NCBI RefSeq assembly: GCF_018885265.1
Contig: NZ_CP076538.1
Span: 1,090,001-1,154,000 of the forward strand
Source of the DNA: Amycolatopsis aidingensis
GTDB lineage: Bacteria; Actinomycetota; Actinomycetes; Mycobacteriales; Pseudonocardiaceae
Length of the DNA: 64,000 nt
Direction: 5' to 3'
Shown: positions 14,235-31,155 of the stretch, piece by piece
Numbering within the stretch: position 1 is the stretch's first letter
How the letters are laid out: each line of letters starts with the position of its first letter
Notes under the pieces: generated by a model
Seen by the model: the letters and a program-made list of their open reading frames with translations, nothing else
Told to the model about the DNA's origin: nothing
Database searches by the model: none
Made by a program: the position numbers and the translations under genes

Positions 14235-14300
14235 GTGTCCCAGGATACGGCCGGGTGGGCAGGCGTGGGTGCGTCGGCCCCCTCTGCGAGGATGCGGGCC

Positions 14301-16391
14301 GTGGGTAGCGCGCCATCCTCGAAGCCGGGCTCTGGTCTGCTGGACGGGCTCGATCCCGAGCAGCGGGCGGCCGCGTGTGCCCCGCGCGGGCCGGTCTGCG
14401 TGCTCGCAGGCGCCGGTACCGGCAAGACCAGGACGATCACCCACCGGATAGCCCACCTCGTCCGCTCCGGCCATGTGGCCGCCGGGCAGGTGCTCGCGGT
14501 CACCTTCACCGCGAGGGCGGCGGGAGAGATGCGGACCCGGCTGCGTGCGCTGGGGGTGGAGGGCGCACAGGCGAGGACCTTCCACGCGGCGGCCATGCGC
14601 CAGCTGCGCTACTTCTGGCCCCGGGTGGTCGGCGACCAGCAGTGGGACCTGCTCGACGGCAAGCTGCGGATGGTGGGCCAGGCGGCCAACCGGGTCGGCG
14701 CGAGCACCGAGGCCGAGGTGCTGCGCGATCTCGCCAGCGAGATCGAGTGGGCCAAGGCCTCGCTGGTCGGCCCGGACGACTACGCGGCGGTGGCGCTGCG
14801 TGCGCAACGGGACATCCCGGAGCCCGCGGCCAAGGTCGCCGAGGTCTACCGCGCCTACGAGGAGCTGAAGAACGGCGCCCGGCTGCTCGACTTCGACGAT
14901 CTGCTGCTGCACACCACCGCTGCCCTGGAGGAACACAGCGCGGTGGCCGAGGAGTTCCGCGACCGCTACCGCTGCTTCGTGGTGGACGAGTACCAGGACG
15001 TCACCCCGCTGCAGCAGCGGCTGCTGGACGCCTGGCTGGGCGGCAGGGACGACCTGACCGTGGTGGGGGACGCGAACCAGACGATCTACTCCTTCGGCGG
15101 CGCCTCGCCCCGGCAGCTGCTGGAGTTCACCAGACGCTTCCCGGAGGCCACCGTGGTGCGGCTGGAACGGGACTACCGGTCCACTCCGCAGGTGGTCGAG
15201 CTGGCGAACACGGTGATCGGCGCGGCGCGGGACCGGCCGGCGGGGTCCAGGCTCCGGCTGACCGGGCAGCGCCCGGACGGCCCGCCGCCGCGGTTCGCCG
15301 AGTACGAGGACGAGCCCGCCGAGGCCGCGGCCACCGCGCAGCGGATCCGGGAACTGCTCGACGACGGCGTACCGGCCAGCGAGATCGCCATCCTGTACCG
15401 GGTCAACGCCCAGTCGGAGGCCTACGAGCAGGCGTTGTCCGATCTGGACATCCCGTACCTGGTCCGGGGCGGGGAACGGTTCTTCGACCGGCGTGAGGTG
15501 CGCCAGGCGATGGCCGCGCTGCGCACCGCCGCCGCAAGAGACGGGGACCGCCGCGGCGATCTCGCCACCCTCGTGCGAGCCCTGCTGCACCCGGTCGGGC
15601 TGACCGAGCAGCCACCCTCGGGCGGGGCGGCCAAGGAACGCTGGGACGCGCTGCTGGCGCTGGTCGAGCTCGCCGAGGAGCTGGAGAACACCGTCGAGGC
15701 CCCCGAGCTGGCGCGGTACGTCGCCGAGCTGGAGCAGCGGGCCGCCGCGCAGCACCCACCTACCGTCGAGGGGGTCACCCTCGCCTCGCTGCACGCAGCC
15801 AAGGGCCTGGAGTGGGACGCGGTATTCCTGGTCGGCCTGGCCGAGGGCACCCTGCCGATCCAGCACGCGGACGGCGACAGTGGCGCCATCGAGGAGGAAC
15901 GCAGGCTGTTCTACGTGGGGATCACCCGCGCCAGGCAGTGGCTGGAGCTGTCCTGGGCGCTGGCCCGCGGCTCCGGTGGGCGCAGGCAGCGCAGGCGCAG
16001 CCGGTTCCTCTACGGGCTGCTGCCGGAACACCACCCCGCCGCGCGAGCCGGGCGCGGGCAGCCCAAGCCCGCCGCAAGGCAGACCAGCTGCCGGGTGTGC
16101 GGGTGCACGCTGACCGCGACCATGGAGGTCAAGCTCGGCCGGTGCACCGGCTGCCCCTCGGATGTGGACGAGGACCTGCTGGCCCGGCTCAAGGCCTGGC
16201 GCGTGGAGCGGGCGCGGGACCTGAAGGTGCCCCCGTTCGTCGTGTTCACCGACGCCACCCTGGTGGCGATCGCCGAGCAGCGCCCGGCCGACGACGGCGC
16301 GCTGGTGTCCATCTCCGGGATCGGGGCCAGCAAACTCGAGCGGTTCGGTGCCGAGGTGCTCGCCGTGGTGCACGGCTCCGGCCGCGGGTAG
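14301..16391 (+). CDS. uvrD2: ATP-dependent DNA helicase UvrD2 (SF1, HRDC)
   Basis: 696 aa, close to the mycobacterial UvrD2 length of about 700. Motifs in order: Walker [16 protein letters not shown] (near residue 35), motif [47 protein letters not shown] and [12 protein letters not shown]. After the motor comes the tetracysteine element CRVCGC plus CTGC, then a C-terminal HRDC domain; this combination identifies UvrD2 rather than UvrD1/PcrA. The GTG start at 14301 has GAGG 9 nt upstream; ATG at 14292 is possible. Its neighbour whiB7 is also conserved in mycobacteria. It unwinds DNA in repair and replication. Confidence 0.93.
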
Positions 16392-16459
16392 CCGTCCCCG
16401 GTTCGTCCGGCAAAGCCCCTGATCAGAGCCTGTCTTCGGCGGATCGTGGAGATTTCTGG

Positions 16460-16497
16460 AAAATCAGTTGCACCGGTGTGCCCAGGAGCAATAGCCT
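16460..16497 (+). promoter_or_regulatory. WhiB7-type autoregulatory promoter (predicted)
   Basis: AAAAT (16460-16464) lies three bases upstream of a -35 element TTGCAC (16468-16473), followed after 18 bp by a weak -10 TAGCCT (16492-16497). WhiB7-dependent promoters in mycobacteria are known to carry an AT-rich block just upstream of the -35 that the WhiB7 AT-hook contacts. The start would be near 16504, giving whiB7 a leader of about 475 nt. Confidence 0.6.
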
Positions 16498-16585
16498 GCA
16501 GGTACTGGGTGGAGCGCCCACGTTTGTCCGGCCGGTGGGGACGCGGCCGACGGCGTCGGCTGAGCTGAGAGAGGAGGTGTCAGGA

Positions 16586-16843
16586 ATGAAGAGCTACGAC
16601 TACTGCAGCTTCCCTGGCGCCTCCCTGCGCCGTGCCGCCATGCCGGCCGTGCTCGCGGGCCAGGGGATCAATGTGTCCTGGGCCGGCCCGGTCATCCAGC
16701 AGATCATGCCCGTCGCTCGCGCGCGTGCCGAGTTCGGCCTGCTCGCTGAGGCCGAGCACGCCGCCATCCGTCCGGTGACCTTTGACCTGCTGACCGACAA
16801 GCCGGTCAGTGTTCCGTCGTCTGAACATGAGCGAAGTCCCTGA
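16586..16843 (+). CDS. 85-aa ORF in the whiB7 leader, candidate regulatory uORF
   Basis: Begins MKSYDYCSFPGASLRRAAM and ends with SSEHERSP. No recognised domain. The ribosome site GAGAGGAGG about 10-16 nt upstream of ATG 16586 is strong. It lies between the WhiB7-like promoter and the hairpin preceding whiB7. Its stop TGA (16841-16843) sits inside a 6-bp hairpin, CCTGAC (16839-16844) with GTCAGG (16851-16856), so a terminating ribosome would disrupt it. It may be a true small protein, a sensing uORF for whiB7, or both. Translation is likely; the role is inference. Confidence 0.65.
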   Translation: MKSYDYCSFPGASLRRAAMPAVLAGQGINVSWAGPVIQQIMPVARARAEFGLLAEAEHAAIRPVTFDLLTDKPVSVPSSEHERSP

Positions 16844-16866
16844 CAGCTCCGTCAGGAGAACAGGCT

Positions 16867-16908
16867 CACGAAGGCCGCGGAACCGTTACCGGATCCGCGG
16901 CCTTCGTG
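16867..16908 (+). terminator. GC-rich hairpin before whiB7 (candidate attenuator)
   Basis: A perfect 15-bp stem, CACGAAGGCCGCGGA (16867-16881) with its complement at 16894-16908 and a 12-nt loop. No T-run follows, so it could be an actinobacterial terminator without a U-tract or an attenuator. It lies 23 bp past the 85-aa ORF and 70 bp before whiB7. Confidence 0.65.
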
Positions 16909-16978
16909 CTGTTCGGGCCAGGTTTTGGCCCGGGCCGCCGCAGTAACACCAAACCGCCACAACACACAAGGAGAACGG

Positions 16979-17350
16979 ATGTCATCGGCCCTCGCCTTCG
17001 CAGCAGGGAAGGCGTTACCCGACGAACTCGTCGACCCTGGCGTCGGCGACCTGCTCGATGCGGTCGCCGCGCCGGACCGGGAACTGCCCTGCCGTGCGGG
17101 CGACGCGGACCTGTGGTTCGCCGAAGCCCCCGCGGACCTCGAGCGGGCCAAGCGACTGTGCGCCGACTGCCCGGTGCGGGATGCCTGCCTGGCAGGTGCG
17201 CTGGCCCGCCGCGAGCCGTGGGGCGTCTGGGGCGGGGAGATCTTCGAGCGCGGTGCCGTCGTGGCGCGCAAGCGTCCGCGGGGCCGTCCGCGCAAGAACC
17301 CCGTCGCCGAGCAGGACACAGCAAACGGACAACGGAGCGCCGCAGCATGA
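16979..17350 (+). CDS. whiB7: WhiB7-type redox-sensitive transcription factor with AT-hook
   Basis: 123 aa. The four [4Fe-4S] ligand cysteines are C38, C61, C64 and C70 (C-x22-C-x2-C-x5-C), followed by the family turn GVWGG (82-86) and a C-terminal AT-hook RGRPRK (101-106), which is specific to the WhiB7/WblC subfamily. WhiB7 binds the primary sigma factor and turns on intrinsic antibiotic-resistance genes. ATG 16979 has AAGGAG 8 nt upstream. Position next to uvrD2 matches mycobacteria. The leader carries an autoregulatory-type promoter, an ORF and a hairpin. Its last codons overlap the start of the next gene (ATGA). Confidence 0.94.
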   Translation: MSSALAFAAGKALPDELVDPGVGDLLDAVAAPDRELPCRAGDADLWFAEAPADLERAKRLCADCPVRDACLAGALARREPWGVWGGEIFERGAVVARKRPRGRPRKNPVAEQDTANGQRSAAA

Positions 17351-17802: not shown

Positions 17803-18681
17803 ATGCCGTTCGTGTCAGCACATACTCATGACGACCTGGACTGGGCGGCGGAGCTGCCCCGGATGCGTCGGTTGGACGCACTCGAGAAAGACAGCCTGCG
17901 CGCGGTGGCCGACCGGCTGGTCGTGGACCTGCCGCCCGGCGGCACGGTGGTGGACGTCGGCTCCGGCTCGGGAGGCATGAGTGCCGCCCTCGCCGGTGCG
18001 CTCGCCGCGGGCCAGGGCGGGCGCATCATCCTGCTGGACGCCGTGGACGAACTCCTCGAGGCCGCCGGCAACGCCGCGGCAGAAGCAGGACCGGGCATCT
18101 CGATCGACACCGTCGTCGCCGATGCCGGCACGGCCCCGATACGCGAGCTGGTGCCGGCCGCCGACCTGATCTGGGCCTCGGCCGTCGTGCATCATCTCCC
18201 CGATCAGCAGGCCGCCATCGACCGGCTGGCAGCGGCCCTGCGCTCCGGTGGCCACCTCGCCCTCGCCGAGGGCGGCCTCGACCAGCGACTGCTGCCCTGG
18301 GACCTGGGCGTGGGCAAGCCGGGACTGGAAGGCAGGCTGCATGCCGCGCGGGAAGCGTGGTTCCTCGAACTCCGGACCTCGATGCCGGACGCCGTCCGGA
18401 TGCCGTACGGCTGGTCCACCGCGCTCAGCAACGCCGGGCTGGTCGAGGTCACCTCCTTCACCTACCTGGTGGACCATCCGGCACCCGCCACGGGCCCGGT
18501 ACTGGACTACGCGCTCGAACGGCTCGCCTGGCTCGCCGAGATCACCGACGACCGGCTCGAGCAGGAGGACCGCGACGCGCTGCGCCTGCTACTCGATCCC
18601 CAGGCACCGGAGTACCTGGGCGCCCGGACCGATGTCTTCCTGAAGTACGCCCGGACCGTGCACTACGGTCGGCTGCCATGA
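17803..18681 (+). CDS. class I SAM-dependent methyltransferase
   Basis: 292 aa. Rossmann-type methyltransferase with motif I TVVDVGSGSGGMSAALAG (residues about 47-64), an acidic strand end IILLDAVDELLEAA, the motif IV-like DLIWASAVVHHLPDQQAA and a LRSGGHLALAEGG segment. This is the UbiE/Methyltransf_11 type acting on a small molecule or unknown acceptor; rRNA methylation is possible but no rRNA-methylase signature is seen. ATG 17803 lies 143 bp downstream of the whiB7 terminator, so it is probably transcribed on its own. No WhiB7-type box was found close to its start. Confidence 0.85.
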   Translation: MPFVSAHTHDDLDWAAELPRMRRLDALEKDSLRAVADRLVVDLPPGGTVVDVGSGSGGMSAALAGALAAGQGGRIILLDAVDELLEAAGNAAAEAGPGISIDTVVADAGTAPIRELVPAADLIWASAVVHHLPDQQAAIDRLAAALRSGGHLALAEGGLDQRLLPWDLGVGKPGLEGRLHAAREAWFLELRTSMPDAVRMPYGWSTALSNAGLVEVTSFTYLVDHPAPATGPVLDYALERLAWLAEITDDRLEQEDRDALRLLLDPQAPEYLGARTDVFLKYARTVHYGRLP

Positions 18682-18695
18682 CCGGCGGGAACGAA

Positions 18696-18864
18696 CCGGG
18701 CCGATGAGCGGCGAGGTGACGCCGAGCGAGCATCGTAGGTCCGGCCCGCGGGCCGGGGAGCGCAGCGAGAAGGAAACCGGGCCGATGAGCGGCGAGGTGA
18801 CGCCGAGCGAGCATCGTAGGTCCGGCCCGCGGGCCGGGGAGCGCAGCGAGAAGGAACCGAGCCA
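18696..18864 (+). repeat. tandem duplicated 81/80-bp palindrome-containing element
   Basis: Two nearly identical copies (about 18696-18776 and 18777-18856), each starting around ACCGGGCCGATGAGC, containing the perfect 16-bp palindrome CCGGCCCGCGGGCCGG and ending in GAGCGCAGCGAGAAGGAA. The start of a third copy (ACCGAGCCAATGAGC) merges into the next gene's ribosome site and ATG. The ATGs are 81 and then 80 bp apart, so the units are not one reading frame. It fills the gap between the methyltransferase and the 66-aa gene. Confidence 0.9.
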
Positions 18865-19065
18865 ATGAGCACGAGCGGTGCCAGGGACGAGGACGCGCCC
18901 GCGGCCTGCTTTCGCTGCGGGGCACGGCGCGACCCGGCGGATCCCGGCCAGCGGCTGGCCTGGGTTGCCGACTTCGACCAGGGCACCAAGCGCTGGCTGT
19001 GCCCGTCCTGCGCCCGGCAGCACGTTCGCGATATCGAAGGGAAGCTGCCCGGCGAGTACTGGTGA
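18865..19065 (+). CDS. small zinc-ribbon-like protein
   Basis: 66 aa with two CxxC knuckles (CFRCGAR at about residue 16 and CPSCARQH at about residue 51), suggesting one bound zinc. Also conserved-looking is WVADFDQGTKRWLCPSC and the C-terminal IEGKLPGEYW. Family unnamed as far as I can tell. The ribosome site AAGGAA is supplied by the end of the preceding tandem repeat, 9-13 nt upstream of ATG 18865. Probably co-transcribed with the methyltransferase through the repeat. Confidence 0.72.
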   Translation: MSTSGARDEDAPAACFRCGARRDPADPGQRLAWVADFDQGTKRWLCPSCARQHVRDIEGKLPGEYW

Positions 19066-30796: not shown

Positions 30797-30873
30797 CGCG
30801 GGGTGGAGCAGTTCGGTAGCTCGCTGGGCTCATAACCCAGAGGTCGCAGGTTCAAATCCTGTCCCCGCTACCA
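30797..30873 (+). tRNA. tRNA-fMet (CAU), copy 1
   Basis: 77 nt with encoded CCA. The anticodon stem has the three G:C pairs (GGG CTCATAA CCC) and the acceptor begins C1 opposite U72, both initiator hallmarks. Anticodon CAT. It lies 73 bp past the UPF0182 stop. Confidence 0.96.
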
Positions 30874-31078: not shown

Positions 31079-31155
31079 CGCGGGGTGGAGCAGTTCGGTA
31101 GCTCGCTGGGCTCATAACCCAGAGGTCGCAGGTTCAAATCCTGTCCCCGCTACCA
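31079..31155 (+). tRNA. tRNA-fMet (CAU), copy 2
   Basis: 77 nt, identical in sequence to the copy at 30797-30873 including CCA. It has the same initiator features and carries the same 5-nt ACGAC stretch region before the gene (AACGACGCGGGG). A separate promoter and terminator show it is an independent unit, not a tandem transcript. Confidence 0.96.

Follow-up and report, generated by a model that had tools for sequence, protein, structure and literature searches.

The whiB7 gene of Amycolatopsis aidingensis is very probably controlled by a transcription attenuator that is operated by an upstream open reading frame (uORF) in its leader, with the WhiB7 protein feeding back on the promoter. WhiB7 is the governor of intrinsic resistance to ribosome-targeting antibiotics in actinobacteria. 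The locus is part of the window analyzed here, a stretch of 64,000 nucleotides (positions 1,090,001-1,154,000 of a single-contig genome of 7.66 Mb), and the leader elements and whiB7 are all on its forward strand. The parts of the leader and their pairings could be recognized in the sequence itself and by comparison with relatives. Leaders of this kind have already been published for actinobacteria, and the comparison supports the placement of this locus among the whiB7/wblC uORF attenuators. As described in PMC10727445, actinobacterial whiB7 leaders contain a uORF and a rho-independent terminator, and overlapping parts of these two make up an antiterminator. The same switch is described in the corresponding portions of PMC9618640, PMC13393426 and PMC11550727, and all four papers cite Lee, Lee and Roe 2022 (Mol Microbiol 117:179); data on the leader in M. 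marinum and M. bovis appear in the portion of PMC4128351. The initial annotation of the sequence had given induction of whiB7/wblC through a uORF and a terminator as known, and this literature bears it out.

The whiB7 gene and its promoter

The regulated gene (16979..17350) encodes a protein of 123 aa that matches the Pfam WhiB family (E 1.5e-15) and has WhiB7 chains as its best solved relatives (E 8.6e-33), identifying it as a whiB7 orthologue. Near the C-terminus it carries the stretch RGRPRKN, which we take to be an AT-hook, and the protein is 73% identical to the WhiB7 of a named Saccharomonospora. NCBIfam returned no family for this product and Rfam, at gathering thresholds, no entry at the leader. 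Immediately 5' of the leader there is a gene for a UvrD-type helicase with an HRDC domain (14253-16391); in mycobacteria, too, whiB7 is a neighbour of uvrD2. Elsewhere in the window, an 81-bp tandem repeat (18685-18870, 2.3 copies, 94% matches) was seen between a methyltransferase gene (17803-18681) and a 66-aa ORF, and two tRNA-Met(CAT) genes (30797-30873 and 31079-31155) with equal Rfam scores lie about 200 bp apart.

The WblC promoter consensus given in the text portion of PMC7157823 is GAAAWY, 3 nt, TKGMNN, 16-19 nt and TANNNT, with transcription starting 7-8 bp past the -10 element. The predicted promoter of the window (16459..16497) agrees with it at every position: a GAAAAT box (16459-16464), 3 nt, the -35 element TTGCAC (16468-16473), 18 nt and the -10 element TAGCCT (16492-16497). 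It was the sole match in the 64 kb of the window, with 0.00 expected (pattern search, 100 shuffles). The GAAAWY box 3 nt before the -35 element marks it as a putative WhiB7-dependent promoter ahead of the leader, and from its fit to the consensus the transcript is predicted to start near 16504-16505, leaving a leader of about 475 nt. The likeness of an AAAAT block and TTGCAC to such a promoter, and the same leader length, had both been proposed at the outset and agree with these results. Among the 103 family leaders with an assigned uORF a promoter 5' of it was found in 41 with a strict match and in 98 with a looser one.

The uORF and its conservation

For the comparison we have used a family set of 111 leaders, 27 from the genus of the window (window included) and 84 from other genera. 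These came from part of 200 family genomes searched, from relatives found in another search and from one named genome; six further leaders were left out before counting, their genomes being already in the set. Nine uORFs were judged misassigned and were excluded from the analyses of the PG motif and its codons, of the helix at the uORF ribosome site, of ribosome-site accessibility and of the codon-region controls; six more, without an anchor, were excluded from the PG-motif codon and hairpin analyses. Beyond the family, a search of the class matched 130 of 148 genomes, and 49 leaders were examined, made up of 29 loci (one from a genome already seen) and 20 chosen ones.

The uORF runs for 85 codons from ATG to TGA (16586..16843), preceded by AGGAGGTG, as the initial annotation of an 85-codon ORF with a strong ribosome site had it, and relatives carry a uORF in the same place. 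That annotation considered the ORF longer than in known whiB7 leaders, a view the family does not sustain. In the family, the median length of the 81 uORFs that have a good ribosome site is 84 codons (range 55-134), with 43 of them below 85, so that the uORF of the window is of ordinary length. Its stop falls 16-35 nt 5' of the hairpin core in the 103 family leaders with an assigned uORF (median 30), and a uORF of 45-160 codons ending 5' of such a hairpin was found in 46 of the 49 class leaders; the other three showed no such arrangement. One congener (L023) has a leader that breaks off in the middle of the hairpin with unrelated sequence upstream, either an assembly error or a rearrangement.

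Within the genus of the window the uORF is mildly constrained as coding sequence (N/S 0.51 in 68 close pairs, which are not independent), and all seven internal indels found there are multiples of three. About 13 of the 85 residues are Ala by our own count, the basis of a passing idea that the uORF might sense alanine. Conservation does not extend to the middle of the peptide; what stands out is a motif near its beginning, PG with T, Y or H as the next residue, which in the window departs from its usual form (FPGASL). The codons of this motif are skewed, for example to TCC for Ser and GGG for Gly, and this skew pointed to the RNA. A stand-alone hairpin encoded by the motif (CCCTGG/CCGGGG) was considered and discarded, being present in some genera and absent in others, including the genus of the window.

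Hairpins after the uORF

A small hairpin (16839..16856; CCTGAC at 16839-16844 and GTCAGG at 16851-16856) holds the TGA stop (16841-16843) within its stem, with a possible outer pairing GAGC/GCTC around it (16829-16832 and 16864-16867). Both the hairpin and the value of looking for a conserved stop within it in related leaders were part of the initial annotation, and the comparison agrees: all three stop bases are paired in 80 of 109 leaders and none in eight, and exchanging strands between genera weakens the pairing in 40/40 draws (12.20 for own strands vs 10.28). In some lineages the stop is TAG with an altered stem, or lies in the loop. The ribosome site of the uORF of the window is also complementary to part of this hairpin.

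The large hairpin, the presumed terminator, follows at 16867..16908. The initial annotation saw it in the right place and gave it 15 bp; it has 18 pairs with one A.A mismatch. The region 16815-16980 folds with -79.4 kcal/mol (z -5.26), and none of 200 shuffles was as stable. A like hairpin is found in 110 of the 111 family leaders, L023 being the exception, as well as in the 46 class leaders with a uORF before it. A strict pattern for its core catches 105/111 family and 6/7 order-level leaders; the seven missed ones, L023 among them, are absent from the counts on antiterminator, stop hairpin, tail and helicase tree.

The tail of this hairpin, CTGTTCGG (16909..16916), holds three T among its eight bases and lacks a T-run, and a terminator scan of 16380-17060 (5 T in 8 required) found none. 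The U-rich tract that follows right after the hairpin of a textbook intrinsic terminator is thus missing, and we have filed 16867-16908 as a homologue of the leader hairpin only. The lack of a T-run had been pointed out initially as something peculiar to this leader; the observation stands and the peculiarity does not, since a run of at least four T, at most 16 nt from the core, is present in 62 of 105 family leaders and lacking in 43. In the genus of the window 24 of 26 leaders have the run, the exceptions being the species of the window and one other. A tail of CTGTT or CTGTC occurs in 28 of the 105 leaders, from 11 genera, and by this distribution it looks like a kept variant and not like decay. 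An extension of the stem by GAACAG/CTGTTC in T-poor lineages was tried as well and turned out inconsistent. Past the presumed terminator a further hairpin can be drawn at 16908-16938 (GGGCCAGGTTTTGGCCC core), also without a following T-run; it is not among the two best hairpins of other leaders.

Candidate antiterminator

The uORF contains an alternative partner for the 5' arm of this large hairpin, one that the initial annotation had not named. The stretch GTTCCGTCGTC (16811..16821) forms 10 of 11 possible pairs with GGCCGCGGAAC (16873..16883), which is shared with that arm, so that the candidate antiterminator consists of overlapping uORF and terminator sequence. The two strands vary together in 111 leaders (105 of the family and six at order level). 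Where the arm reads CGGAA, the upstream strand has GTTCCG in 66 of 74 cases and GTCCG in five; where it reads CGGAC, GTCCG is found in 28 of 33 and GTTCCG in two. Two order-level leaders with ACGGAC carry GTCCG, and six leaders have none of the motifs. Strands from the same leader pair better than strands swapped between genera (20/20 draws, 18.82 vs 17.06) and than strands swapped among 18 families (59/60 draws, 20.03 vs 17.84). Against shuffled upstream sequence, p<=0.05 was obtained in 7/18 families. On a tree of the adjacent helicase, the strands changed only three and four times within the family, with no pair opposite, too few changes for significance by independent pairs. The family counts therefore repeat few events, and better evidence comes from comparing families with one another.

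We have also modeled the folding of the nascent RNA, with the stretches that a ribosome would cover kept from pairing. As long as the large hairpin still lacks its 3' arm, the predicted probability of the antiterminator is 0.96 with no ribosome or with one at the start codon, 0.85 with a ribosome at codon 10 and 0.97 at codon 40; a ribosome that sits on the antiterminator codons lowers it to 0.00 and one at the stop to 0.41. The stop hairpin has a probability of 0.98-1.00 at this stage unless masked, and a ribosome at the stop opens its stem. Once complete, the large hairpin wins in all ribosome cases (1.00), and since it always wins at equilibrium the switch must be kinetic, decided during transcription. 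The initial suggestion that antibiotic stalling on the ORF could change which hairpin forms is strengthened by the co-variation of uORF codons with the terminator arm and by the dependence of the modeled pairing on ribosome position.

A probable helix at the uORF ribosome site

The ribosome-binding site of the uORF, GGAGGTGTCAGG (16573..16584), is complementary in 12 of 12 positions to codons 10-13 of the same uORF, CCTGGCGCCTCC (16613..16624), a feature that had no place in the initial annotation. The pairing scores 30, compared with a mean of 15.0 and a maximum of 28 in 205 control genes drawn from the window and twenty other stretches of this genome (464 kb in all). The form of the partner follows that of the site in 79 family leaders. 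With a GGTGGC site, GGC-YAC-C is found in 16 leaders (14 genera) and a shorter form in one; with GGTGCC or GGTGTC, the shorter form (GGC-AC-C or GGCGCC) in 27 (10 genera) and the longer in one; with GGTGCT, the shorter form in nine, all of one genus. The rest comprises 21 leaders without a recognizable partner, one with both forms and three with another type of site and the shorter form. The helix begins at codons 8-13 in 33/38 groups. Own strands pair better than swapped ones within the family in 40/40 draws (20.41 vs 17.94) and across 17 other families in 59/60 (18.92 vs 16.04); with codons 7-17 alone the own strand is better in 20/20 draws, and with the control codons 27-49 and 40-62 in 1/20 each.

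Other results count against the helix. The core of the ribosome site is as accessible in 32 family genera as in the 205 control genes (0.400 vs 0.401), and in the window its accessibility is 0.026 or 0.31 depending on the six bases counted. The local fold is unremarkable (z -1.39, 17/200 shuffles as stable), and synonymous shuffles gave p<=0.05 in 1/38 genomes (one per group; 0.018 for the window alone), a possible reason being that the strand is already carried by the peptide. On the helicase tree the two strands changed three times each within the family, too few for significance by independent pairs, and Fisher tests by genus (p 2e-5 and 5e-5) leave kinship uncorrected and are not relied on. 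Taken together, the comparisons indicate that the pairing of the ribosome site with codons 10-13 is probably real, and through it the leader could respond to translation initiation besides stalling. The helix goes unmentioned in the text portions, titles and abstract openings examined of papers on whiB7/wblC leaders, and on that basis we do not call it unpublished.

In five leaders of one family the early part of the uORF contains inverted repeats like GACCGATC-NC-TCGGTC; in some of the five the 3' part of these repeats overlaps the pairing partner of the ribosome site.

Proposed mechanism

For termination, switching, induction and autoactivation we draw on the published relatives. When the first ribosome tracks RNA polymerase through the uORF, it would cover the codons at 16811-16821 and open the stop hairpin; with these codons covered, the hairpin at 16867-16908 would form and most transcripts would end there. 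If translation of the uORF is stalled early or is not started, 16811-16821 would pair with the 5' arm of the hairpin before its 3' arm exists. The stop hairpin lies inside this antiterminator structure, between both strands, and would bring them together. Polymerase would then read through and WhiB7 would be made. The helix at the ribosome site would turn initiation at the uORF into a race of ribosome loading against RNA folding, so that whiB7 would be switched on by weak initiation and not only by stalled elongation. According to a 2025 paper, the stalling of ribosomes in the uORF of whiB7 "has not been tested". Ribosome stalling, as opposed to poor initiation, may be regarded as a candidate signal for the switch.

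Alternative explanations

The T-poor tail leaves room for the same uORF switch with another endpoint, in which the hairpin would only pause the polymerase or terminate weakly, with NusG, Rho or mRNA decay as the dominant agent. By the title of Czyz 2014, the mycobacterial RNA polymerase requires a U-tract, with NusG aiding at suboptimal terminators, and the many family leaders without a run of four T fit such a leaky or factor-dependent stop, though nearly all leaders of the genus of the window do have one. We consider it rather unlikely, the hairpin remaining strong and the CTGT[TC] tail that recurs in 11 genera having the appearance of something kept. The missing T-run, which leaves termination unproven, would also suit translation attenuation, with the leader hairpins masking and exposing the whiB7 ribosome site while RNA polymerase is not stopped. 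In a translation attenuator the ribosome site of the regulated gene is hidden in the off state; that of whiB7 is predicted to be accessible (0.52 unpaired, with 73% of the 205 control genes at or below this value), and the distance from the hairpin to whiB7 is highly variable among relatives, all of which makes such a mechanism very unlikely.

In another reading sensing is done by the peptide that the uORF encodes, whose PG motif would be an arrest peptide at which ribosomes stall with certain drugs, with the RNA pairing in this region secondary. The motif is located at about residues 8-14, which is where macrolide-dependent leader peptides arrest, and the mild coding constraint on the peptide agrees with such a role. 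Its codons are, however, skewed and co-vary with the ribosome site, which points to the RNA, and the version in the window deviates from the usual motif, so that we regard a peptide sensor as improbable. Hardly credible is a main whiB7 promoter between the uORF and the gene, which would make the leader irrelevant. The initial annotation had named a promoter directly before whiB7 as what would speak against an attenuator; no sigma-70-like site was found within 16380-17060 and the one WblC-type site of the window precedes the uORF. No point in favor of such a promoter was found, and the conservation of the arrangement in the class leaders argues against it. We thus prefer the uORF-controlled attenuator.

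Comparison with known systems

With the whiB7/wblC attenuators of mycobacteria and Streptomyces, as far as the available portions of the papers describe them, the locus shares the gene, the predicted WhiB7-dependent promoter, the long leader, a translated-looking uORF, the hairpin after it (homologous across the class) and an antiterminator of overlapping uORF and terminator sequence. It differs in its tail without a T-run, the mycobacterial hairpin being described with a T-rich one, and in the helix at the ribosome site, absent from those text portions. The sequence of its uORF is unlike the uORFs of other families except in short RNA-constrained stretches. Attenuators of the ilvB/trp type (M. 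tuberculosis ilvB1, text portion of PMC13236596) have in common with it that the position of the ribosome on a leader ORF selects antiterminator or terminator; they carry regulatory codons for one amino-acid group, no run of which was noticed in this leader, and they are not homologous to the whiB7 leader. The toiL uORF of E. coli topAI-yjhQ, as portrayed in part of PMC12121999, also senses several classes of ribosome-targeting antibiotics, with a different host, gene and RNA structures, and no relatedness is claimed.

Biological meaning

The conserved pairings tell precisely what a reporter construct should disrupt to separate the sensing of stalled elongation from that of slow initiation, and the T-poor lineages lend themselves to probing the need of a U-tract in an actinobacterial attenuator. 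Neither the length of the uORF nor the missing T-run makes this leader special; the part of the whiB7 leader that deserves a second look is the helix at the ribosome site. We propose, tentatively and with somewhat more doubt than confidence, that in many families of the class a second control element exists, a uORF ribosome site folded on the early codons that would make the leader a sensor of initiation rate as well as of stalling. If true, sensing of the initiation rate would explain the induction of whiB7 by unrelated drug classes and by starvation alike.
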